Shown here piece after piece: positions 46,649-57,954 of a stretch of 64,000 nucleotides of DNA. Numbering within the stretch: position 1 is the first letter of the stretch; the number at the start of each line of letters is the position of its first letter. Both the position numbers and the translations under genes were made by a program. The notes beneath the pieces are model-generated. The model searched no databases. It was not told the origin of the DNA and worked only from the letters and a program-made list of their open reading frames with translations. The DNA comes from Hydrogenophaga sp. (GTDB lineage: Bacteria; Pseudomonadota; Gammaproteobacteria; Burkholderiales; Burkholderiaceae_C): NCBI RefSeq assembly GCF_030373225.1, contig NZ_JAUCZG010000004.1, positions 1 to 64,000 on the forward strand, in the 5' to 3' direction.

Positions 46649-46668
46649 TACTGTACGTGTATACAGTA
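46649..46668. promoter_or_regulatory. LexA (SOS) box of imuA-imuB-dnaE2
   Basis: CTGT (46651-46654), 8 bases, ACAG (46663-46666), flanked by TA on both sides, give a nearly perfect 20-bp palindrome of the TACTGT-N8-ACAGTA form. It lies 46 bp before the imuA ATG, where it would block the promoter until DNA damage. Confidence 0.92.
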
Positions 46669-46714: not shown

Positions 46715-47554
46715 ATGCATCCCGCCCTCGACTGGCAGGAGGACGACCTGTCTTCCGCCTTCACACCCGCCGCCCCGGCCCCCACGCCCCGACCGGCCCG
46801 CCTGCCCGGTGAACTGCCGATGGCGGTGGCCGCGGCCATCTGGCGCGGCGACCAGCTCGGTGGCCCGGTCTCGGCCGTGCTGGCCAGCGGCTTCGACGCG
46901 CTGGACGCGCAGTTGCCCGGCGGCGGCTGGCCGTGCCACGGGGTCATCGAGATCCTGGCGCCGCAAAGCGGCATCCTGGAATGGCGCCTGCTCGGGCCGG
47001 CGCTGCGCCAGGTGTGCGCCGCCGGGCGCGCGGTGGTGGTGGTCGGGCCACCCAAGGCGCCGCACCTGCCGGGACTGCGTTTCGAAGGCATCGACGAGCG
47101 CCAGCTGGTGTGGGTGCGGGCCGACACGCCGTCCGAGCGCCTGTGGTCGGCCGAACAACTCGTCAAGGCCAACGCCTGCGGTGCGCTGGTGGTATGGCTG
47201 CCGCAGGTGCGTGCCGAGCAGGTGCGTCGCCTGCAGGTGCTGGCCGCCGGTTGCGAAGGCCCGGTGTTCCTGTGCCGGCCGATCACGGCGGCGCGCGAGT
47301 CGTCGGCCGCGCCGCTGCGACTGCAGGCCCGCGTGGGACCGGACTGGGAACTGCACCTGAGCATCTTCAAGCGCAAGGGCCCGCCGCTGGAAGACACGTT
47401 GCGCCTGGGCTCGGTGCCCGGCGGGCTGCGCGCCATCCTCACGCCGCGGCTGCGCTTCCCCAGCCGCCTTCTGCCCTCCGATGCGCACCGAGAGGCCGAA
47501 CATGTTGTGGTCAGCACTCCTGCTCCCGACCGCCCCCGTCACGCCGTCCACTGA
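46715..47554 (+). CDS. imuA: ImuA, SOS mutagenesis accessory protein
   Basis: The 279-residue RecA/SulA-related protein is needed with ImuB and DnaE2 for error-prone translesion synthesis. The start MHPALDWQEDD is at 46715. The block GFDALDAQLPGGGWPCHGVIEIL and the strand VVVVGPPKAPHLP fit ImuA. The C-terminal RKGPPLEDTLRLGSVPGGLR-like region is also typical. It overlaps imuB by 53 bp. Expression should be LexA-controlled. Confidence 0.92.
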   Translation: MHPALDWQEDDLSSAFTPAAPAPTPRPARLPGELPMAVAAAIWRGDQLGGPVSAVLASGFDALDAQLPGGGWPCHGVIEILAPQSGILEWRLLGPALRQVCAAGRAVVVVGPPKAPHLPGLRFEGIDERQLVWVRADTPSERLWSAEQLVKANACGALVVWLPQVRAEQVRRLQVLAAGCEGPVFLCRPITAARESSAAPLRLQARVGPDWELHLSIFKRKGPPLEDTLRLGSVPGGLRAILTPRLRFPSRLLPSDAHREAEHVVVSTPAPDRPRHAVH

Positions 47555-48815
47555 GGCGGCGCGCCGAGCCGTGGCCACCTGGGCGTTGCAGTTCACGCCC
47601 CGCGTGGCGCTGGCCGATGGTGCGGTGCTCATGGAGGTGGCGGCGAGCGTGCGCCTGTTTGGCGGCAAGCGTGCGCTGCGCGACCGTGTGGTGATCGAGA
47701 GCCCGCAGCTCGGTGTGGTGCAGGTGGCCTGGGCGCCGAACAGCCTGGCCGCGCTGGCGCTGGCGCGCGCCGGCCGTGAAAACGGCTTGCGGCAGGCGCT
47801 GCCGGTGCTGCTCGATGCCTTGCCCATGGCGGTGTTGAGCGCCACACAGCCCCACCACACCACGCTGGCGCACATCGGCTGCCGCACGCTGGGCGACATC
47901 CGCGCGCTGCCGCGCGGCGGCATGGGCCGGCGCTTTGACAAGCAGTTGCTGCAGGCACTCGACCAGGCCTACGGTGCCGAACCCGAGGCCCATGTGTGGG
48001 TGGCGCTGCCCGAACGGTTCGAGGAACGGCTGGAGCTCATGGCGCGCGTGGAACAGGCGCCGGCCCTGCTGTTTGGTGCGCGGCGCCTGCTGCTGGTGAT
48101 GAGCGGCTGGCTGGCGGCGCGGCGCGCGGGCGTCACGGCCTTCACGCTGCGCTGGGCGCACGACGCCATGCGAGCGCGGGACGCGGGCGAGGGCGGCGAG
48201 ATCACGGTGCGCACGGCCGAGCCCACGCGCGACACCGAACACCTCTGCCGCCTGCTGGCCGAGCACCTGGCCCATGTGCAGCTGCTCGCGCCCGTGGGCG
48301 ACCTGCAGCTGCTGGCCACCGAGGTGCAGCCGCTGGTGGAGACCAGCGCCTCGCTCTTGCCCGACACCGTGCGCCAGGGTGAGACGCTGCACCTGGTGCT
48401 GGAGCGGCTGGCCGCACGCCTGGGGCCCGGGCGCGTGTTGCGCCCGGTGCTGCTGCCCGACCACCGCCAGGAATGGATGTGCCGCTGGCAGAGCGCGCCC
48501 GAACCGCTGCCACGCAAAACCGGCAAGGCACCGGCCTGCACCACCGGCCTGCCACAACCCACCTTTGTATTGCCCGAGCCTCTGAAGCTGGCGGTGCGCG
48601 GCAACCGGCCGATCTACCAGGGTGAACTGCAGCTGCTCGCCGGCCCGCAGCGGGTGGAGGGCGGCTGGTGGGACCGCGTGGACGACGTGGCCACCACGCG
48701 CAACGTGGTGCGCGACTACTGGGTGGCGCTCTCGGCGCACGCGGGTGTGCTGTGGGTGTTCCAGACGCGGCTGGACGAGACGCCTGCGTGGTACCTGCAC
48801 GGGCACTTTGCATGA
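47502..48815 (+). CDS. imuB: ImuB, inactive Y-family polymerase
   Basis: The 437-residue protein from ATG 47502 (MLWSALLLP) has the Y-polymerase palm/little-finger layout. It lacks the acidic catalytic residues of DinB (no SIDE-type motif), as ImuB proteins do. It tethers DnaE2 to the beta clamp. It overlaps imuA at the front and dnaE2 (ATGA, 48812) at the end. An upstream ATG at 47481 is also in frame. Confidence 0.92.
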   Translation: MLWSALLLPTAPVTPSTEAARRAVATWALQFTPRVALADGAVLMEVAASVRLFGGKRALRDRVVIESPQLGVVQVAWAPNSLAALALARAGRENGLRQALPVLLDALPMAVLSATQPHHTTLAHIGCRTLGDIRALPRGGMGRRFDKQLLQALDQAYGAEPEAHVWVALPERFEERLELMARVEQAPALLFGARRLLLVMSGWLAARRAGVTAFTLRWAHDAMRARDAGEGGEITVRTAEPTRDTEHLCRLLAEHLAHVQLLAPVGDLQLLATEVQPLVETSASLLPDTVRQGETLHLVLERLAARLGPGRVLRPVLLPDHRQEWMCRWQSAPEPLPRKTGKAPACTTGLPQPTFVLPEPLKLAVRGNRPIYQGELQLLAGPQRVEGGWWDRVDDVATTRNVVRDYWVALSAHAGVLWVFQTRLDETPAWYLHGHFA

Positions 48816-51800
48816 ACCTGCCCGACTACGCCGAGCTGCGCTGCATTTCCAACTTCAGCTTCCTGCGCGGCGCCAGCCGGCCCGAGGAGCTGGTGCAGCG
48901 GGCGCATGCGCTCGGTTACCGCGCGCTGGCGCTGGTGGACGAATGCTCCATGGCCGGCATGGTGCGCGCGCACGGGGCGGCAAAAGACAAGGGCCTGAAG
49001 CTGCTGGTGGGCAGCCAGTTCCGGGTGCAGGCGGACGCAGCCTTCACCCTCATCGTGCTGGCCTGCAACCTCAACGGCTACGGCAACCTGTGCGAGTTCA
49101 TCACGCGCCTGCGCCGCGCCTCGGCCAAGGGCAGCTACCACCTGGGCCTGGACGGCATCGACGCCGCCGCGCTCGCCGACTGCGTGGTGATCGCCGTGCC
49201 CGAGCGCACGGGCGAGCAGGCGCAGATGGACACGGTGGCGCGCTGGCTGCTGCAGCATTTCATGGGCCGCTGCTGGCTCGGGGTGGAGCAGTTGCGCCGG
49301 CTCGACGACGAGATGCTGCTGCACAAGCTGCGCCAGAGCAGCGATCTCACCGCGGTGCCGCTGGTGGCCGTGGGCGACGTGCACATGCACCTGCGCTCGC
49401 GCAAGCCGCTGCAGGACGTGCTCACCGCCACGCGCATCGGCCAGCCGCTGAGCGCCTGCGGGCTGGCGCTGTCGCAAAACGCCGAGCAGCACCTGCGCTC
49501 GCGCCTGGCACTGGGCCAGCGTTACCCGGCCGGGCTGCTCGCTGAAACGCTGGTGGTGGCCGACCGCTGCGCGTTTTCGCTCGACGAACTGCGCTACCAG
49601 TACCCGGACGAGGTGGTGCCCGCCGGCGAGACGCCCGCCAGCCATTTGCGCCGGCTGGCTTACGAGGGCGCCGGGCGGCGCTGGCCCGAAGGTGCGACGG
49701 CTGCGGTGCAGCAACAGATCGAACACGAACTCGCGCTGATCGAGGAGCTGAAGTACGAGCACTACTTCCTCACCGTGTACGACATCGTGGCCTTCGCGCG
49801 TTCGCAGAACATCCTGTGCCAGGGCCGTGGCTCGGCGGCCAACAGCGTGGTGTGTTACTGCCTGGGCATCACCGAGGTGGACCCGGCGCGCATGTCGGTG
49901 CTGTTCGAGCGTTTCATCTCGCGCGAGCGCAACGAGCCGCCCGACATCGACGTGGACTTCGAGCACGAGCGGCGCGAGGAAATCATCCAGTACCTCTACC
50001 GCAAGTACGGCCGTGAGCGCGCCGCGCTGACCGCCGCGGTGGCCAGCTACCGCCCGCGCAGCGCCATTCGCGATGTCGGCAAGGCGCTGGGTTTCGCCGA
50101 GGCCACGCTGGACGCGCTGGCCAAGGGCCACCAGTGGTGGGACAGCCGCGGCATCGAGCCCGAGCGCCTGCGCGAAGCGGGGCTGGACCCGCAAAGCCTG
50201 GCGGTGCGCCAGTTGATCGCGCTCACCGGCCAGCTCATGGGTTTTCCGCGCCACCTCTCGCAGCACAGCGGCGGCTTCGTGCTCACGCGCCTGCCGCTCT
50301 CGCGCATGGTGCCGATCGAAAACGCCAGCATGGCCGGGCGCACGGTGATCGAGTGGGACAAGGACGACCTGGACGCCATGGGCCTGCTCAAGGTGGACGT
50401 GCTGGCCCTGGGCATGCTGACCGCCATCCGCAAGTCGCTGGCGTTCATCGGCGAGCGCAAGGGCCATGTGTTCGAGATGCAGGACATCCCGCCCGAGGAC
50501 GAGGCCACCTACGACATGATCTGCGCCGCCGACACCGTGGGTGTGTTCCAGATCGAGAGCCGCGCGCAGATGAGCATGCTGCCGCGCCTCCAACCCCGCT
50601 GCTTCTACGACCTGGTGATCGAAGTGGCGCTGGTGCGCCCCGGCCCCATCCAGGGCGGCGCGGTGCACCCGTACCTGGACCGCCGCCAGGGCAAGGTGCC
50701 GGTGAGCTACCCCAGCGCTGCGCTGGAGCAGGCGCTGGGCCGAACGCTGGGCATTCCGATCTTTCAGGAACAGTGCATGCAGATCGCCATATTGGCCGCG
50801 GGCTTCACGCCCGGCGAGGCGGACGGCCTGCGCCGCGCCATGGCAGCCTGGAAGCGCAAGGGTGGCCTGGGCCACTACGAACGCCGCCTGATCGACGGCA
50901 TGACCGAACGCGGCTACACGCTGGAGTTCGCCCAGGGTGTGTACGAGCAGATCAAGGGATTCTCCAGCTACGGCTTTCCCGAGAGCCACGCCGCCAGCTT
51001 TGCGCTGCTGGTCTATGCCAGCTGCTGGATCAAGCGCCACCACCCGGCCGAGTTTCTGGCCGCGCTGCTCAACAGCCAGCCGCTGGGCTTCTACACCCCG
51101 AGCCAGCTGGTGCAGGACGCCCGGCGCCACCAGGTGGAGGTGCGCCGCGTGGACGTGCTGCACAGCGAATGGGACTGCACGCTCGAAGAGCGCTCTGCCG
51201 TCCGGGCCGATCCCACCCCCGTTCGGGCTGAGCCCACACCCGTTCGGGCTGAGCCTGTCGAAGCCCTGCCCGCCGTGCGCCTGGGCCTGCGCCTGGTCTC
51301 GGGCCTGAAGACCGGGGCCGCCCAACGCATCGTGGCGGCCCGCGCCCAGCGCCTGTTCGACAGTGCCGAAGACCTGGCCCGCCGCGCCGGCCTGGACCAG
51401 CAGGACATGCAGCAGCTCGCCGCTGCCGATGCGCTGGCGGGCCTGAGTGGCCACCGCCGCCAGCAGGTGTGGGACGCCGCCGCCCTGAAGACCGCGCCCG
51501 AACTGTTGCAGGACGCGCCGGTGGACGAAGACCCGCTGGACCTGCCCGAGGCGCCCGAGGGCGAAGCGGTGGTGTGGGACTACGCCAGCCTGGGCCTCAC
51601 GCTGCGCCGCCACCCGCTGGCGCTGCTGCGCCCGCAACTCGACCAGCGAAAGCTCATGACCGCCGAAGCGCTGCAGCACGCACCCAACGGCAGGCTGGTG
51701 CGCCATTGCGGCATCGTCACCCTGCGCCAGCAACCCGAGACCGCTTCCGGCGTGGTGTTCGTGAGCCTGGAAGACGAGACCGGTGTGGTGCAGGTGATCG

Positions 51801-51973
51801 TGTGGAAACACCTGCGCGAACGCCAGCGCACCGTGCTGCTGCGCTCACGCCTGCTGGCGGTGTACGGTGTGTGGCAGCGCGAAGGCGAAGCAAAGAACCT
51901 GATCGCCGGCCACCTGGAAGACCTCACGCCGCTGCTCAGGGGGCTGTCGACGGTGAGCCGGGATTTTCATTGA
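48812..51973 (+). CDS. dnaE2: Error-prone DNA polymerase DnaE2
   Basis: The 1053-residue C-family polymerase has a PHP domain at the N-terminus (YAELRCISNFSFLRGASRPE), then the palm (QGRGSAANSVVCYCLGIT and PDIDVDFEHERR, holding the catalytic Asp residues), fingers, and a C-terminal OB region (GIVTLRQQPETASGVVFVSL). Between fingers and OB region, residues 797-817 contain three 7-residue repeats not expected in the family (see repeat at 51198). Its last 7 bp overlap the convergent AbiEii gene. Last gene of the SOS operon. Confidence 0.94.
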   Translation: MNLPDYAELRCISNFSFLRGASRPEELVQRAHALGYRALALVDECSMAGMVRAHGAAKDKGLKLLVGSQFRVQADAAFTLIVLACNLNGYGNLCEFITRLRRASAKGSYHLGLDGIDAAALADCVVIAVPERTGEQAQMDTVARWLLQHFMGRCWLGVEQLRRLDDEMLLHKLRQSSDLTAVPLVAVGDVHMHLRSRKPLQDVLTATRIGQPLSACGLALSQNAEQHLRSRLALGQRYPAGLLAETLVVADRCAFSLDELRYQYPDEVVPAGETPASHLRRLAYEGAGRRWPEGATAAVQQQIEHELALIEELKYEHYFLTVYDIVAFARSQNILCQGRGSAANSVVCYCLGITEVDPARMSVLFERFISRERNEPPDIDVDFEHERREEIIQYLYRKYGRERAALTAAVASYRPRSAIRDVGKALGFAEATLDALAKGHQWWDSRGIEPERLREAGLDPQSLAVRQLIALTGQLMGFPRHLSQHSGGFVLTRLPLSRMVPIENASMAGRTVIEWDKDDLDAMGLLKVDVLALGMLTAIRKSLAFIGERKGHVFEMQDIPPEDEATYDMICAADTVGVFQIESRAQMSMLPRLQPRCFYDLVIEVALVRPGPIQGGAVHPYLDRRQGKVPVSYPSAALEQALGRTLGIPIFQEQCMQIAILAAGFTPGEADGLRRAMAAWKRKGGLGHYERRLIDGMTERGYTLEFAQGVYEQIKGFSSYGFPESHAASFALLVYASCWIKRHHPAEFLAALLNSQPLGFYTPSQLVQDARRHQVEVRRVDVLHSEWDCTLEERSAVRADPTPVRAEPTPVRAEPVEALPAVRLGLRLVSGLKTGAAQRIVAARAQRLFDSAEDLARRAGLDQQDMQQLAAADALAGLSGHRRQQVWDAAALKTAPELLQDAPVDEDPLDLPEAPEGEAVVWDYASLGLTLRRHPLALLRPQLDQRKLMTAEALQHAPNGRLVRHCGIVTLRQQPETASGVVFVSLEDETGVVQVIVWKHLRERQRTVLLRSRLLAVYGVWQREGEAKNLIAGHLEDLTPLLRGLSTVSRDFH
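51198..51267 (+). repeat. Three 21-bp tandem units inside dnaE2, related to the dispersed repeat
   Basis: CCGTTCGGGCTGAGCC begins at 51219 and 51240, and a decayed copy at 51198, with a 21-bp period. In frame they encode VRADPTP-VRAEPTP-VRAEPVE. The last unit runs on into GCTGAGCCTGTCGAAGCCCT, matching the left arm of the repeat at 21731. This suggests an intergenic repeat that landed in the gene and kept the frame. Confidence 0.75.
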
Positions 51974-52836
51974 GGGGTCGGCAAGGAACCTGCCTCCAGC
52001 AGGCTCGGCTGCAGGGCTCTGCGCAACGCGGCCACGGTGTCGGGTAGCGGTCGATGATTCAGTTGATTTTTCTTGAGGAATGCATGCCAGAGCGCCTGGC
52101 GTGACGGATCGGTTCCAAACTCGTCCGTCAAGCCCAAGGGCAATGCAGCGGGAACCACCATGCCTCGCCGGTCAAACGTGGCTGCGATCGCCCGTGCCAA
52201 TGTCCTGGTGTTCAGGGTTTCGCGGTCCAGCAATATCGACAGGTCCAGGTAGTCTTTCAACCGGCTGTTGGTCATGCCAAGCAAGGCGATGGCATGAAGC
52301 TTTTCGGCGATGACGGTGTAGACCGGGTAAGTGCGCAGGCGCGGCGCAGGCAGATCGGTCAGCAGCACGGGGTAAACCGCGGCCACGGGTCCGGGCGTGA
52401 CTGCGTCGCCGAATCCGATGTCGATCTGCGTCTTGCAACGCGCTTTGGCCACGTCGGCCGTGATCAAGATCCGGGCTCCGGCATAACCCGCCTCTTTGCG
52501 AATGTCTTCGGCCGTGATCGACGCGGGATCGAAGTGAATGCCGTCGTCTGCTTCAACGCTCACGATGTCGCGGAATGTCTGAACCACGGACGCCAGATCG
52601 CTGGGCCCGAAACCCAGCAAGTCCGCATCGCGCGTGGCGCGGTGGGGCATGTCGTACCAGAGCGTGAACAGCAGCGCTCCTTTGAGCAAAAAGTCATCGG
52701 CGTGTGCCGACTGGCTCAGGCGATAAAGCATGCGTTCGAGCGCAAAACGGACCAACACCTGATTGAAATCCACACCTTGTGCCTTGGCGATATTGAGCAG
52801 GCGTGCCCGCACCGATGCTGCACGGTCCTTGCTCAT
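51967..52836 (-). CDS. AbiEii-type nucleotidyltransferase toxin, copy 1
   Basis: The 289-residue protein has the AbiEii/AbiGii fold. LLKGALLFTLWYDMPHRATR plus DADLL hold the GS/DxD-like nucleotide site, and KLHAIALLGMTNSRLKDYLD holds a later conserved Asp/Lys motif. Type IV toxins of this group halt growth, often as abortive phage defence. It overlaps its antitoxin gene by 4 bp and the 3' end of dnaE2 by 7 bp. The copy at 54659 is closely related. Confidence 0.88.
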   Translation of the reverse strand: MSKDRAASVRARLLNIAKAQGVDFNQVLVRFALERMLYRLSQSAHADDFLLKGALLFTLWYDMPHRATRDADLLGFGPSDLASVVQTFRDIVSVEADDGIHFDPASITAEDIRKEAGYAGARILITADVAKARCKTQIDIGFGDAVTPGPVAAVYPVLLTDLPAPRLRTYPVYTVIAEKLHAIALLGMTNSRLKDYLDLSILLDRETLNTRTLARAIAATFDRRGMVVPAALPLGLTDEFGTDPSRQALWHAFLKKNQLNHRPLPDTVAALRRALQPSLLEAGSLPTPQ

Positions 52837-53444
52837 TCAATGGCCTCCAGGTAGGGGCGCATCACATTGGCGACGCGGCAGATCTTTGCGTATCGCCAGA
52901 GATCGTCGGCCGAAACCTTCTTCTGCGCACGTGCGTCGCGCAGCGCTTCCAGTGCCACGTCGATACCGATTTTGTTGCGGTGTTTGAAGCAGTCAACCAC
53001 GGTCTTGGCCACGCCATAGACCCGCAGTGGAACTCCATCGTGTTTGAAGATTTCGACGCCTGCCGCGTAAGCGTCACCGGTGACCTGGACCATCTTGAGC
53101 GGTGGGTAGTCGATCTTCGGCACATGGCTGCCACGCGGCATGGCGATCCAGATCTGGTTCGGAAGCTGTGTGGTGACGCCATGAAACTGCAGCGCAGTGA
53201 GCAGGCAAAAAACAGCCTGTGGCACCTTGGTGGCAACAGTGATCAGGCTCTCGTTTTCAGAGAGGTCCTGGTCGGGCAGACGGTAGAGACCTCGATCAAC
53301 TTTCTCCAGCAGTCCGGCGGCTGTCATGCGCGCGAGCACCGCGCGAGACGCGCCGGTCGCCTCCAGATCGCTGGGGCGCAGCAAACCCTTGTGCGCGAGC
53401 AGATCCAGGATGCGCTGGGTGTGGGTTTCGTTCTGAGGAGACAT
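52833..53444 (-). CDS. AbiEi-type antitoxin, copy 1
   Basis: The 203-residue protein has an N-terminal winged helix (ILDLLAHKGLLRPSDLEATG) and the AbiEi core CLLTALQFHGVTTQLPNQIW plus VYGVAKTVVDCFKHRNKIG. It neutralises the AbiEii toxin and represses its own operon. The start ATG is at 53442-53444, 17 bp behind a 14-bp inverted repeat. It is homologous to the protein at 54063, and conserved residues align along the whole length. Confidence 0.9.
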   Translation of the reverse strand: MSPQNETHTQRILDLLAHKGLLRPSDLEATGASRAVLARMTAAGLLEKVDRGLYRLPDQDLSENESLITVATKVPQAVFCLLTALQFHGVTTQLPNQIWIAMPRGSHVPKIDYPPLKMVQVTGDAYAAGVEIFKHDGVPLRVYGVAKTVVDCFKHRNKIGIDVALEALRDARAQKKVSADDLWRYAKICRVANVMRPYLEAIE

Positions 53445-53452
53445 GCCATCGC

Positions 53453-53499
53453 AGTATGTTCCATTTATTCGTCGATTGCAAACATTCGACGAATAAATG
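53453..53499 (-). promoter_or_regulatory. Promoter and AbiEi operator, copy 1
   Basis: CATTTATTCGTCGA (53462-53475) and its exact reverse complement (53486-53499) flank a 10-bp centre. On the minus strand TTGCAA (53476-53481) and CATACT (53453-53458) are 17 bp apart, so one arm lies between -35 and -10. A start near 53446 would give an almost leaderless message. Autoregulation through such repeats is known for AbiEi. Confidence 0.75.
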
Positions 53500-53514
53500 A
53501 ATCACCTGCTTCCC

Positions 53515-53997
53515 TCAGGAGCCCAACAGCGTGCCGGTGATCAACCTCCAGTGCGCCTCGCTCACCGGCGTGATCGACAAGCGGCTGCCGCGCTGCAGCA
53601 GCGTCATGTCGGCCAGGGCCGGGTTCGCCCGAAGTTCGGGCAGGCCGAGCAGCCGCGTCTTGCGCAGCGCCTTCACATCGAGCAGCAGCCAGCGCGGTGC
53701 ATCAGGTTTGGACTTGGCGTCGAAGTAGGGCGACTGCGGGTCGAACTGCGTGGGGTCGGACCGGGTGGTGGACGCGACCTGTGCGATGCCGGCGATGCCG
53801 GGCTGCGGACAACTCGAGTGGTAGAACAGCACGCCGTCGCCGATGCGCATGGTGTCGCGCATGAAGTTGCGCGCCTGGTAATTGCGCACGCCGGTCCAGG
53901 GCACGGTGGCGCCGGGTGCGGCGAGTGCGTCGTCGATCGAGCACTCGTCGGGCTCGGATTTCATCAACCAGTATCGGGCTGCAGCGGGTGAGGTCAT
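53515..53997 (-). CDS. EVE-domain protein (possible modified-base reader)
   Basis: The 160-residue protein starts YWLMKSEPDECSIDDALAAP and has WTGVRNYQARNFMRDTMRIG and GVLFYHSSCPQPGIAGIAQV, the hallmark EVE (PUA-like) blocks. EVE domains are reported to bind modified bases in DNA or RNA and occur in restriction and tRNA-related systems. It sits between the two AbiE pairs, on the strand of copy 1 but with its own start. Confidence 0.9.
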   Translation of the reverse strand: MTSPAAARYWLMKSEPDECSIDDALAAPGATVPWTGVRNYQARNFMRDTMRIGDGVLFYHSSCPQPGIAGIAQVASTTRSDPTQFDPQSPYFDAKSKPDAPRWLLLDVKALRKTRLLGLPELRANPALADMTLLQRGSRLSITPVSEAHWRLITGTLLGS

Positions 53998-54010
53998 CGC
54001 GCTATTTTGC

Positions 54011-54057
54011 GGAGTTTTTTCATGACTTGTTGATAAGTCATGAGTTATTTAAACTCC
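54011..54057 (+). promoter_or_regulatory. Nested inverted repeats upstream of AbiEi copy 2
   Basis: An inner pair TCATGACTT (54020-54028) / AAGTCATGA (54035-54043) with a 6-bp centre lies within an outer pair GGAGTTT (54011-54017) / AAACTCC (54051-54057). A TAAACT at 54050-54055 could be the -10, 17 bp after TTGTTG. The sequence is unlike the copy-1 operator. Confidence 0.65.
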
Positions 54058-54062
54058 CTGGC

Positions 54063-54662
54063 ATGAACCAATCTGAAAGCATCCTGGACCTTGCCCGGCG
54101 CCAGCGCCTGCTGCGCGCGGCCGACGTGCGCGAGCAGGGTTGGTCGCCTCAGTTGCTGATACGTCTGCATGCAATGGGGCAACTGGAGCGTGTGGCCCGT
54201 GGAATCTACAGCCTTCCCGATGCGGATTTCACCGAGTACAAGGGGCTGGCAGAAGTGTGTCAGCGCGTGCCCAAGGCGGTGATCTGCCTGCTGTCCGCCT
54301 TGCAGTTCCACGGCATCGGCACCCAACTGCCTCACGAGGTCTGGATCGCGCTGCCCGAGGGCGCGCAAACCCCGGCGGGGGATTACCCGCCACTGCGCGT
54401 CTCGCGTCTGCGCGGGGACGCCTATGCCTCAGGGGTAGTCACTGTGATGGAGCGGGGTTCACCGATCCGCGTTTACAGCGCCGCCAAGACAGTCACCGAC
54501 TGCTTCAAGTTCCGCAACAAGATCGGACTGGATGTGGCGCTTGAAGCGCTCAAGGACGCATGGCGGTCCCGCAAGGTCACCATGGACGACGTCGCGCACT
54601 TCGCGCGCATCAACCGGGTGGAACAGGTGATGCGGCCTTATCTCGAGGCGGTGGTGGCATGA
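54063..54662 (+). CDS. AbiEi-type antitoxin, copy 2
   Basis: The 199-residue homologue of the 52833 gene has the same order: winged helix (ILDLARRQRLLRAADVREQG), CLLSALQFHGIGTQLPHEVW, then VYSAAKTVTDCFKFRNKIGL and the end VEQVMRPYLEAVVA. The ATG is 54063. It overlaps the toxin start (ATGA at 54659). The differing operator and many substitutions suggest the copies no longer cross-regulate, which is inference. Confidence 0.9.
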   Translation: MNQSESILDLARRQRLLRAADVREQGWSPQLLIRLHAMGQLERVARGIYSLPDADFTEYKGLAEVCQRVPKAVICLLSALQFHGIGTQLPHEVWIALPEGAQTPAGDYPPLRVSRLRGDAYASGVVTVMERGSPIRVYSAAKTVTDCFKFRNKIGLDVALEALKDAWRSRKVTMDDVAHFARINRVEQVMRPYLEAVVA

Positions 54663-55561
54663 AGAAGGACCTGTCGGCATCGGTGCTGGCGCGCTTGTTG
54701 AACTTGTCGAAGCAACGCGGTGAGGACCACAGCCTGCTGCTCAACCGGTTTGCGCTGGAGCGGTTGTTGTACAGGGTCGGAATCTCAAGGCACTCACAGC
54801 AGTTTTTACTGAAGGGCGCATTGCTGTTCGCACTTTGGTACGACGACCCCCATCGGCCCACCCGAGATGCCGATCTGCTGGGCTTTGGTCCGGACGACGA
54901 CGCGAGTCTGGTGGCGACGTTTCGTGAACTGGCCAACATGGCGTTGGACGACGGCATCGTGTTCGATGCCGCATCGGTGCGCGCCAGCAGCATCCGCGAG
55001 GACAACACCTACGGCGGCACGCGGATTCACCTGACCGCCCACATCGGTCCTGCTCGCTGCGTGTTGCAGATCGACATAGGTTTCGGCGATGCAGTGACGC
55101 CCCCAGCAAGAACAGTGGTGTTTCCCGCCTTGTTGCCGGATTTCGAAGCGCCGCAGCTTCGTGCGTATCCGGTCTACACGGTGATCGCAGAGAAGTACCA
55201 CGCCATGGTGGTGCTTGACCTGGCGAACAGCCGCATGAAGGATTTCTACGACCTCATGGTCATCGCGCAGCGCACCCGGCTGGACGGCGCAACGCTGGCC
55301 GCCGCCGTGGCTGCCACCTTTGCCCGGCGAGCCACTGCGTTGCCAAGCGAGCCGCCGTTGGCTTTGACTGCCCGATTCAGCGAAGACGCTGCCAAAGTGC
55401 GGCAATGGCAGGCTTTCTTGGGCAAGAACCGCCGGGAGGCGGGTTCGCTGGTGCTTACCGTGGAGCTGTTGTACAGGCTGCTGTGGCCGGCCACACAGGT
55501 CGCTGCCGAGCGAAGTTCTGCGAACGCCAGCTGGAGCCCCGAGGCCGGCAACTGGGCTTGA
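54659..55561 (+). CDS. AbiEii-type nucleotidyltransferase toxin, copy 2
   Basis: The 300-residue paralogue of the 51967 gene starts MKKDLSASVLARLLNLSKQR and shares LLKGALLFALWYDDPHRPTR plus DADLLGFG. It also has QIDIGFGDAVTP and RAYPVYTVIAEKYHAM with copy 1. Convergent with the chemotaxis gene after 21 bp. The tail is longer than copy 1 by about 12 residues. Confidence 0.88.
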   Translation: MKKDLSASVLARLLNLSKQRGEDHSLLLNRFALERLLYRVGISRHSQQFLLKGALLFALWYDDPHRPTRDADLLGFGPDDDASLVATFRELANMALDDGIVFDAASVRASSIREDNTYGGTRIHLTAHIGPARCVLQIDIGFGDAVTPPARTVVFPALLPDFEAPQLRAYPVYTVIAEKYHAMVVLDLANSRMKDFYDLMVIAQRTRLDGATLAAAVAATFARRATALPSEPPLALTARFSEDAAKVRQWQAFLGKNRREAGSLVLTVELLYRLLWPATQVAAERSSANASWSPEAGNWA

Positions 55562-55582
55562 TGCCCCAAGGTCAGCGAGTCG

Positions 55583-57355
55583 TTAGAACGATTCCCAATC
55601 GTCCGAAGCCCCGGCCCGCTCGGCCACCTTGGCCACCGGCTGTGGTGCCGGCCTGGCCAGCGCCGGCTTCTTCGGGGCCACCGGCACCGGCCTGGCATTG
55701 GCGACGACCGGCTTCTTTGCCGCCGGCATGCTGCGCACGGCGCCGCTGCCGGGCTTGTGCAGGTCGGCCGACCGGACCTGCGCGATCGTGCTCTGCGACG
55801 TGCTGTGTGCATCCACCCGGAACACGCGCACCACCTCGGCCAGCCGGTCGGCCTGGTCGTTCATGCTCGATGCGGCGGCGGCACTTTCTTCGACCAGGGC
55901 TGCGTTCTGCTGGGTCAGCTGGTCCAGGTTGGCCACGGCCGAGTTGATCTGGTTCACGCCGTCGGCCTGTTCGCCCGAGGCGCTGGCGATCTCGCCGATC
56001 ATGTCGCGCACGCGCACCACGTTGGCCACGATCTCGCCCATGGTCGTGCCGGCCTGGTTCACCAGCTCGGTGCCGGCGGTCACCTTGTCCACGCTGGTGC
56101 CGATCAGCACCTTGATCTCTTTGGCGGCCTGCGCGCTGCGCTGGGCCAGGTTGCGCACCTCGCCGGCCACCACGGCGAAACCGCGGCCCTGCTCGCCGGC
56201 GCGGGCCGCTTCCACCGCCGCGTTGAGCGCCAGGATGTTGGTCTGGAAGGCGATGCCGTCGATGACGCCGATGATGTCGCTGATCTTGCGTGAGGACTGG
56301 TTGATCTCTTCCATGGTAGTGATCACCTGTTGCACCACGTCGCCACCCTTTTGTGCGCTTTGCCCGGCCACGTCGGCGAGCTGGTTGGCCACGCGGGCCG
56401 AGTCGGCCGACTGGCGGATCGCGCCCGACATCTGCTCCATGCTGGCGGCGGTCTGCTGCAGGTTGGAGGCGGTTTGCTCGGTGCGGGCCGAGAGGTCGTT
56501 GTTGCCGGCGGCGATTTCCTTCGCAGCCACGGTGATGTTGTCGGTGCCGCGCTTGACATCGGCCACCACGTTGACCAGGCGGTCGCGCATGCCGAGCAGT
56601 GCCGCCGACATGGCGCCGAACTCGTCCTTGCGGTCGTTGCGGATCTGCGCGGTGAGGTCGCCGCTGGCGATCTGTTCGGCGAAGGCCATGGCTTCGCGCA
56701 GCGGATTGCGGATGTTGCGGATCAGGAAGAAGGCGCCGGCGACGATGGCGGCGATCAGCGCGCCGACCTGGAACGTGGCAATGGTCAGGCTGGTCGCGCG
56801 CTGCTCGCTGAAGCTGGCCTGGGCCTGCTGACGGATCTCCGCCTGCAGGCGGGCGAACTCGCGCAGGGCGGCGAGGTAGGGCGGCACGGTCTGGTTGAAG
56901 CGGGTCGAAATCTCCAGCGCGGCGCCAGCGGCATCGCCGGCCTGTTTCAGTTCGTTGGCCTTGCCCAGCGAGTCCAGCACGTTCTTGCGCAACTCGGCGA
57001 TCTTCGCCATCTGGGCCTGTTCCTGCCCGTTCATGTCCATGGTCTGCAGTTCCTTCTGCAGGGCAGAAATGGCCGCCACGCCGGCCGGGATCAGGTCCTT
57101 GTACATCTCGGCCACGACCGGGTCCGAGCTGGCGATCGAGGCCTGCACGCGCGTGACGTTGGTCTCGGTGAGACCCGCCCATTCGGTGGCGATGGTGGTC
57201 TTGTGGGCGAGGGCCGAGAGCACCTTTTCGGATTCCTGGTTGAGCATGGCCGACCGCGCCCCTGCGGTGGCAACGACGACAAACAGGGCCACGATGATGG
57301 CGATGACACCGGCCCACAGGCGGGCGCCCACGGAGAGCTTGCGAAAGAGGTTCAT
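55583..57355 (-). CDS. Methyl-accepting chemotaxis protein
   Basis: The 590-residue receptor has a first helix at about 12-33, a periplasmic helical ligand domain to about 190 (4HB type), a second helix and a HAMP domain ([20 protein letters not shown]). The long signalling coiled coil follows, with hairpin [20 protein letters not shown]. After an Ala/Pro-rich linker it ends DWESF, like the CheR/CheB-docking pentapeptide. The ligand is unknown. It lies 62 bp after cheW. Confidence 0.93.
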
Positions 57356-57417
57356 GGGATTCCAGCAGACGAAGGAGAGCGGGCCGCGGCCGGTCGGATC
57401 CGGTGCGGCACGAGGAC

Positions 57418-57954
57418 TTATTGAACGGGCGTGGGGTGGGTCACCAGGCCCATGTCGGCGCTGCCGATGAGGGCTTCGATGTTGGCCAGGATGAGCATGC
57501 GCTCGCCCACGCTGGCGATGCCGGTGATGAAGCCGGCGTCCAGCGTGGTGCTGATCTGCGGCGCCGCCTTGATGTGGTCCTGCCCGAGGCGGATCACGTC
57601 GCTCACCGAATCGACCACCAGCCCCACGACGCGGTCGTGCACGCTGAGCACGATCACCACGGTGAGCGCGTTGTAGTCGACCTTCTCACAGCCCAGCTTG
57701 ATGCGCATGTCCACGATCGGCACGATCACGCCACGCAGGTTGACCACGCCCTTGATGAAGCCGGGAGCGTTGGCGATGCGGGTGGGTTCTTCGTACGAGC
57801 GGATCTCCTGCACGCTCAGGATGTCGATCCCGTATTCCTCCGCCCCCAGGCGAAAGCTCAGGAACTCGCCGGCGCGGGCCGACGACGGCGACTGGCCGCG
57901 GGCCAGGATGTGGGAAGACGAGACGCTGACGGTGGGGGTGGGGATGGTGTCCAT
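57418..57954 (-). CDS. cheW: CheW-like coupling protein
   Basis: The 178-residue protein has a 28-residue disordered start and one CheW domain ([20 protein letters not shown], then [18 protein letters not shown]). It links receptors to CheA. It heads a CheW-MCP pair; no CheA gene is in the window. Confidence 0.92.

Follow-up and report, generated by a model that had tools for sequence, protein, structure and literature searches.

Two AbiE toxin-antitoxin pairs beside a resident EVE-domain gene in Hydrogenophaga sp.: probably separate settlements rather than one system

Genes of the block

The first 64,000 nucleotides of contig NZ_JAUCZG010000004.1 of Hydrogenophaga sp. (RefSeq assembly GCF_030373225.1; the whole stretch is called the window here) contain a block of five genes in which two AbiE toxin-antitoxin pairs, in opposite orientation, stand on either side of a gene for an EVE-domain protein:

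51967..52836, minus strand: AbiE-1 toxin (Tox1; AbiEii, DUF1814 nucleotidyltransferase), by Pfam and PADLOC
52833..53444, minus strand: AbiE-1 antitoxin (Ant1; AbiEi), by Pfam and PADLOC, overlapping the toxin gene by 4 bp
53515..53997, minus strand: EVE-domain gene, resident, 160 amino acids, by Pfam, third-position GC and relatives
54063..54662, plus strand: AbiE-2 antitoxin (Ant2; AbiEi), by Pfam and PADLOC
54659..55561, plus strand: AbiE-2 toxin (Tox2; AbiEii), by Pfam and PADLOC

A preliminary description of this DNA had reported two diverged AbiE pairs around an EVE gene, and all five genes are indeed present, with Pfam and PADLOC in agreement. The Pfam family AbiEii (PF08843) matches the two toxins (E = 2e-43 and 1.2e-46), AbiEi_4 and AbiEi_3_N match both antitoxins, and EVE (PF01878) matches the middle gene (E = 5.4e-52); PADLOC assigns both pairs to AbiEi/AbiEii, and NCBIfam gave no match for any of the five proteins. 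The toxins share 55% identity over 278 amino acids and the antitoxins 54% over 196, and in the second pair, as in the first, the antitoxin and toxin genes overlap by 4 bp. The toxin 1 stop codon falls inside the last codons of the convergent dnaE2. The genome has a single EVE gene and a third AbiE pair (contig C22 of G000; L122, 8770-9944), the toxin of which is broken by in-frame stops. No tRNA was found in the window by ARAGORN, and no RNA by Rfam at gathering scores.

Comparison with relatives leads us to conclude, with a probability of about 0.9, that two independent type IV AbiE modules settled separately in the gaps beside a resident EVE gene, and that the block is real but incidental.

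Occurrence of the arrangement in relatives

Sixty genomes of the genus, including that of the window, were searched with EVE and toxin 2, and 45 genomes at least 90% complete were searched with EVE and toxin 1, adding six new ones for a total of 66. Toxin 1 was the only toxin query for the six new genomes, and toxin 2 the only one for those less than 90% complete; each query also retrieves the clade of the other, at approximately 50-55% identity. Wider regions were fetched around 40 EVE genes, and 20 around AbiE copies; for nine further EVE genes the distance to AbiE was judged from search coordinates. Many genomes are fragmented, and an AbiE pair past a contig end beside EVE would escape the survey (in G011, for example, EVE starts 39 bases from the end).

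EVE is present in 50 of the 66 genomes (45 of 60, G013 in pieces only, and five of the six new ones), with 74-93% identity in 43 near-full-length genus matches. In only five of the 50 is AbiE within 1 kb of it: on both sides in the window genome, as AbiE-2 in G031, and as AbiE-1 in G016, G001 and G013, EVE in G013 being cut by contig ends. A survey for AbiE-EVE-AbiE co-occurrence, proposed with the preliminary description, thus recovered the full arrangement in one EVE-bearing genome, that of the window. The same description had held that EVE at this place without AbiE in relatives, together with the lack of a phage phenotype, would tell against a joint system; no AbiE is found beside it in G032, G023 and G058, and one pair only in G016, G001, G013 and G031. 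In G039 and G034, AbiE-1 is beside dnaE2 and EVE is about 3 and 15 kb away. In a wider set, an AbiE toxin or antitoxin was found in none of 80 named EVE neighborhoods (profile search, E 1e-3, over the available flanks of at most 9 kb per side); these loci are best matches, some short, of which at least four (L125, L126, L128 and L129) repeat genomes of the genus survey, and records nearest the window genome may be excluded. G057 has, about 7 kb away from its main EVE gene, a further incomplete stretch resembling EVE (L071, 15957-16175; 62-63% identity), next to a stretch of dnaE2 C-terminal sequence.

Contents of the two gaps beside EVE

On its left, EVE is separated from dnaE2 by a gap that could be read in 28 loci (window included) with both genes in one fetched region. 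This gap holds AbiE-1 in five loci (with further genes in G034 and G039), MqsR and/or MqsA in four (both in G023 and G031, MqsA alone in G058 and G037), no more than 37 bp in four (G032, G022, G046 and G048), and other sequence in 15, some with an ankyrin-like or CRNIKTLFNFEPP protein (names given by eye). In the two loci that have both genes, Pfam confirmed MqsR and MqsA; MqsA without a detected MqsR (L069 and L075, in G058 and G037) looks like an MqsRA remnant. The idea that this gap is a constant slot for toxin-antitoxin modules was rejected on the 15 loci with other sequence.

On its right, EVE adjoins an orthologous gene for a methyl-accepting chemotaxis protein (MCP) in nine genomes, seven of which have nothing in between (gaps of about 40-80 bp in G023, G032, G016, G058, G001, G037 and G028) and two of which have AbiE-2 (the window genome and G031). 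Alignment to empty sites delimits the insertions:

54012..55578, plus strand: AbiE-2 insertion as delimited by the empty sites of G023, G016 and G001; with G032 as reference the right edge is at 55582
between 51976 and 53532: AbiE-1 insertion, aligned to the empty site of G032 alone

No target-site duplication was evident by eye at the insertion edges, and no dedicated test was made. A dnaE2 tree joins G013 (AbiE-1) to G023 and G031 (MqsRA), with modest support (83/79), so the occupant of the left gap seems to change among close relatives; this is a gene tree, in which the window's own dnaE2 is oddly placed. The contents of both gaps vary among relatives, which argues that the AbiE pairs are optional occupants and EVE the resident.

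Origin and selection of the AbiE pairs

In trees of 26 toxins and of 26 antitoxins, AbiE-1 (eight rows) and AbiE-2 (ten toxin and nine antitoxin rows) form separate clades, each with 100/100 support in both trees; the two trees concur on the main clades, though not on every inner branch. The antitoxin tree nests two members of the AbiE-1 clade, G035 and G059, among the six dnaE2-linked copies (91/87), but the toxin tree places them outside this group (94/92). The window AbiE-2 is nearest to that of G031 (94% and 90%), and after that to copies located elsewhere in other genomes. A local inverted duplication around EVE could account for the mirror arrangement and the roughly 55% identity of the pairs, but the pairs fall in different clades, where each has nearer kin in other genomes, and relatives carry one pair without the other, which leaves it almost no probability; both trees speak against it.

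Relatives of AbiE-2 occur on 630 plasmid records (best in Variovorax, 68%; one in Polaromonas, 56%), and phage records hold remote relatives only (15 records, all below 60%, best row 37.5%). GC content at third codon positions (GC3) is 0.728 for toxin 1, 0.721 for antitoxin 1, 0.780 for antitoxin 2 and 0.774 for toxin 2, and 0.882 for EVE; the mean for 49 other predicted window genes, which were picked by a rule on GC3 minus GC at second positions that favors high GC3, is 0.852 (sd 0.060). Of these 49 genes, 2 have lower GC3 than toxin 1, 2 than antitoxin 1, 8 than antitoxin 2, 8 than toxin 2, and 29 than EVE. These values fit a foreign AbiE-1 and a native EVE.

The AbiE pairs look to be under selection: the ratio of nonsynonymous to synonymous substitution (dN/dS, Nei-Gojobori) is 0.09-0.19 in 16 comparisons of the window AbiE genes with homologs, two of which include interrupted toxin genes and several of which are distant, with dS above 1. 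The corresponding values are 0.10-0.34 for EVE (five comparisons) and 0.22-0.26 for ImuB (three comparisons). In-frame stops interrupt the AbiE-1 toxin in two of the six dnaE2-linked copies, near residue 38 in G001 (L070) and near residue 60 in G039 (L089); none was seen in the antitoxin genes.

The resident flanks

The block is bordered by genes that relatives share:

46715..51973, plus strand: imuA-imuB-dnaE2, the SOS mutasome operon, resident left flank, by Pfam domains for dnaE2 and synteny in relatives
46651..46666, plus strand: LexA-box-like site CTGTACGTGTATACAG, 48 bp ahead of the likely imuA start codon (46715)
55583..57954, minus strand: MCP gene and cheW, resident right flank, by relatives

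Pfam finds PHP, DNA_pol3_alpha, finger and HHH domains in dnaE2; its neighbors, without a Pfam match at 1e-8, are named imuA and imuB by position. The LexA-box-like site is the sole match in the window to the LexA consensus; chance would give a similar rate (shuffle mean 0.82), so its weight rests on its place.

The window dnaE2 (48812-51973) is unusually diverged, at about 80% identity to near relatives compared with about 90% for ImuB, except for its last 100 residues (92-93%). Replacement by recombination is a possible explanation of this pattern. Direct repeats resembling CCCGTTCGGGCTGAGCC lie in its reading frame at about 51200-51265, within the 100-residue stretch of lowest identity to relatives (57-76%).

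The position of AbiE-1 raises the question of whether it is functionally linked to the SOS operon, since with convergent genes SOS induction could disturb its transcription. Six of the eight AbiE-1 clade members (window, G016, G013, G001, G039 and G034) lie immediately 3′ of dnaE2 and convergent to it, even where EVE is 3 or 15 kb off, and a LexA-box-like site precedes imuA; the ends of AbiE-1 and dnaE2 overlap in the window, while in two genomes that are more distantly related they stand slightly apart. Inheritance from a single insertion would suffice to explain this, however, and close relatives have MqsRA or almost nothing at that place, two of the six toxins have in-frame stops, and G059 and G035 are not beside dnaE2, with the two trees disagreeing on whether they fall among the six. 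We therefore consider such a link improbable. Slightly more improbable still is the specific version in which AbiE-1 would be a regulated partner of the mutasome, tripped or silenced by SOS transcription through dnaE2 and exchangeable with MqsRA as the arrest module of this site; if true, it would couple mutagenic repair to growth arrest.

Operators and the EVE 5′ region

Each pair has its own operator-like inverted repeat:

53462..53499, no strand: AbiE-1 operator-like inverted repeat CATTTATTCGTCGA-N10-TCGACGAATAAATG, 14-bp arms and 10-bp spacer
54020..54043, no strand: AbiE-2 operator-like inverted repeat TCATGACTT-N6-AAGTCATGA, in the 65-bp divergent EVE/AbiE-2 intergenic region

For each, 300 dinucleotide shuffles of the 110-bp upstream stretch gave no repeat that scored as high. 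The AbiE-1 copies near dnaE2 have a common operator-like repeat, ATGTTCCATTTATTCGTCGA-N10-TCGACGAATAAATGGAACAT: its 20-bp arms are perfect in G016 and G001, G013 has one mismatched pair, the window has the outer part of the far arm altered, and G034 and G039 have diverged forms; the G035 and G059 copies keep only its inner part. Among the AbiE-2 rows, seven of nine share CAT-x-ACTT-N6-AAGT-x-ATG (in one of these, L109, the repeat was read by eye, the script having chosen another hairpin), and L110 and L112 are less regular. The earlier claim that each antitoxin gene has a different inverted-repeat operator is thus borne out: spacers (N10 versus N6) and arms differ, and close relatives of each pair keep its type. 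Because the types are unlike, cross-repression between AbiE-1 and AbiE-2 appears unlikely.

The AbiE-2 repeat also lies ahead of EVE, 23 to 46 bp from its start codon, which suggests a further possibility: that the AbiE-2 operator captured EVE, placing it under a new divergent promoter region repressible by AbiEi-2, with EVE expression tracking the state of AbiE-2. In the empty sites, MCP immediately precedes EVE in the same orientation, the two in tandem about 40-80 bp apart, and in the window it is the 65-bp EVE/Ant2 gap, containing the repeat, that occupies this position. The arrangement has been seen only in the window genome and G031, however, and a consensus promoter scan of the 65-bp gap found none; we regard capture as unlikely, though worth keeping in mind.

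In six empty-site relatives (L065, L067, L068, L069, L070 and L075), an 8+3-pair hairpin, GGTCATCG...CGATGACC, spans the EVE start codon; its upstream arm is lost with the AbiE-2 insertion. The alignment of the six shows wobble changes and three cells that break pairing, with no compensatory pair.

Type of the EVE protein and defense context

The EVE protein is a stand-alone domain closest, among solved structures, to 2g2x (PP5205) and 2eve (PSPTO5229), both Pseudomonas proteins, and its sequence fits the conserved, slow-evolving beta/gamma-proteobacterial type. According to the available part of a census of EVE proteins, this conserved group is tied to zapA-6S RNA and cell-cycle functions, whereas fast-evolving EVEs are tied to defense contexts and some EVE proteins to toxin-antitoxin contexts; AbiE is not mentioned in that part (PMC7641849). 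The window differs from the conserved group in having no 6S RNA by Rfam (zapA was not searched for), although this linkage is typical rather than strictly defining, and 6S RNA was found just upstream of EVE in two of eight Burkholderiales loci scanned.

PADLOC at 1e-10, applied to 54 window proteins (best 25 of 28 families), returned, in addition to AbiE, mad3 (1.5e-32) and mad2 (1.4e-14), each matching one protein, and one marginal C3a186 match (7e-11); the mad2/mad3-matching protein was not among eight of the 54 that were rescanned. With single mad members and a marginal match, nothing among these proteins is convincing beyond AbiE, and a defense island was rejected. The preliminary description had suggested a composite defense island. 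The composite origin stands, as separate arrivals, but EVE as a part of a defense island is not supported, given the AbiE-free relatives, the 80 named loci without AbiE and the PADLOC result.

Its alternative suggestion, that EVE senses modified bases and couples them to growth arrest, amounts to one composite system in which EVE would read modified bases in phage or host nucleic acid and release or steer both AbiE toxins. Adjacency in the window and the toxin-antitoxin contexts in the accessible part of the census (PMC7641849) are in its favor. Nonetheless, EVE stands at this locus in close relatives without AbiE or with a single pair, the gap can hold the unrelated MqsRA, none of the named loci has AbiE, and the window EVE resembles the conserved type and not the fast-evolving EVEs to which that source, silent on AbiE in the same part, ties defense. 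We consider this reading very improbable, and the suggestion is not sustained. Among the papers searched, none names both AbiEii and the EVE domain; one entry brings together AbiE and Hydrogenophaga, and another imuB, dnaE2 and AbiE.

Proposed history and function

Under the favored interpretation, AbiE-1 and AbiE-2, from two clades, would have settled in the two short gaps flanking resident EVE. By analogy with other members of the family, each AbiEi would use the inverted-repeat operator of its pair to repress that operon and would neutralize the AbiEii of the same pair, a DNA-polymerase-beta-like nucleotidyltransferase that, when freed, is predicted to halt growth. The outcome may be plasmid or locus addiction and perhaps also abortive infection by phage, the phage effect again being expected from the family; EVE, whose sequence is of the conserved housekeeping type, probably plays no part in either module.

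Several observations weigh against this interpretation. There is no mobility gene between the insertion edges. For antitoxin 2 and toxin 2, GC3 is reduced only slightly, 8 of 49 genes having lower values, which is weak evidence for a foreign AbiE-2, and AbiE-1 is 89-93% identical to its counterparts in G016 and G001, about equal to EVE (87-89%), so it need not be a recent arrival. The dN/dS of EVE is not lower than that of AbiE, so EVE is no more constrained here than the supposed guests. The location of AbiE-1 beside dnaE2 in six of eight clade members is more constant than expected of random cargo, although inheritance can explain it. Finally, both window toxins have motifs I and II as GA-x15-DAD, with R before D, and conserve the motif III lysine and the motif IV aspartate (KD), but position +7 from the lysine, a spacing taken from published residue numbers with no alignment to that protein (PMC3985639), is L in all 26 toxins, each of which has another R (N[ST]R). 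In the available part of that source, the motif III arginine seven residues past the lysine is essential in S. agalactiae AbiEii (PMC3985639); with leucine there, it is not certain that the published mechanism applies to the window toxins.

A neighborhood as striking as toxins, a sensor-like domain and toxins again can dissolve on comparison with relatives, which is a caution for similar cases. What remains is a well-resolved example of unrelated modules, AbiE and MqsRA, that in different relatives occupy the same chromosomal gap by an SOS operon, and it can help in asking why toxin-antitoxin modules settle where they do.

Comparison with known systems

The window pairs resemble the AbiE type IV systems of Streptococcus agalactiae and Lactococcus, as far as the consulted part of the source describes them, in antitoxin-toxin order, AbiEi families and upstream inverted repeats, and in a DUF1814 AbiEii with motif I, motif II (x15 spacing, DhD after R), the motif III lysine and the motif IV aspartate (PMC3985639). 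They differ in a motif I of glycine-alanine and not G[G/S], an alanine that the same text notes in some homologs, and in compact repeats with 6- or 10-bp spacers compared with arms 27 bp apart in S. agalactiae (PMC3985639).

Searches of solved structures, which covered toxin 1, antitoxin 2 and EVE, gave the AbiE-1 toxin a single sequence match up to E = 1, AbiG (AbiGI/AbiGII, PDB 9hlo; E = 5e-26), and the AbiE-2 antitoxin matches AbiGII's partner (E = 2e-8) and also 6y8q (E = 4e-8). The similarity to AbiG is remote, and AbiGII has the +7 arginine that the window toxins lack. A paper describing the AbiG structure was not among the 8 of 28 literature matches listed.

The window AbiEii toxins are presumably kin to the MenT family. 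Nucleotidyltransferase toxins of that family modify tRNA acceptor ends, according to the parts of two reports that were available (PMC11541572, PMC10435456), and the window toxins might act on the same ends. The MqsRA module, finally, shares with AbiE-1 the dnaE2-EVE gap, which it occupies in G023 and G031, but belongs to unrelated protein families.

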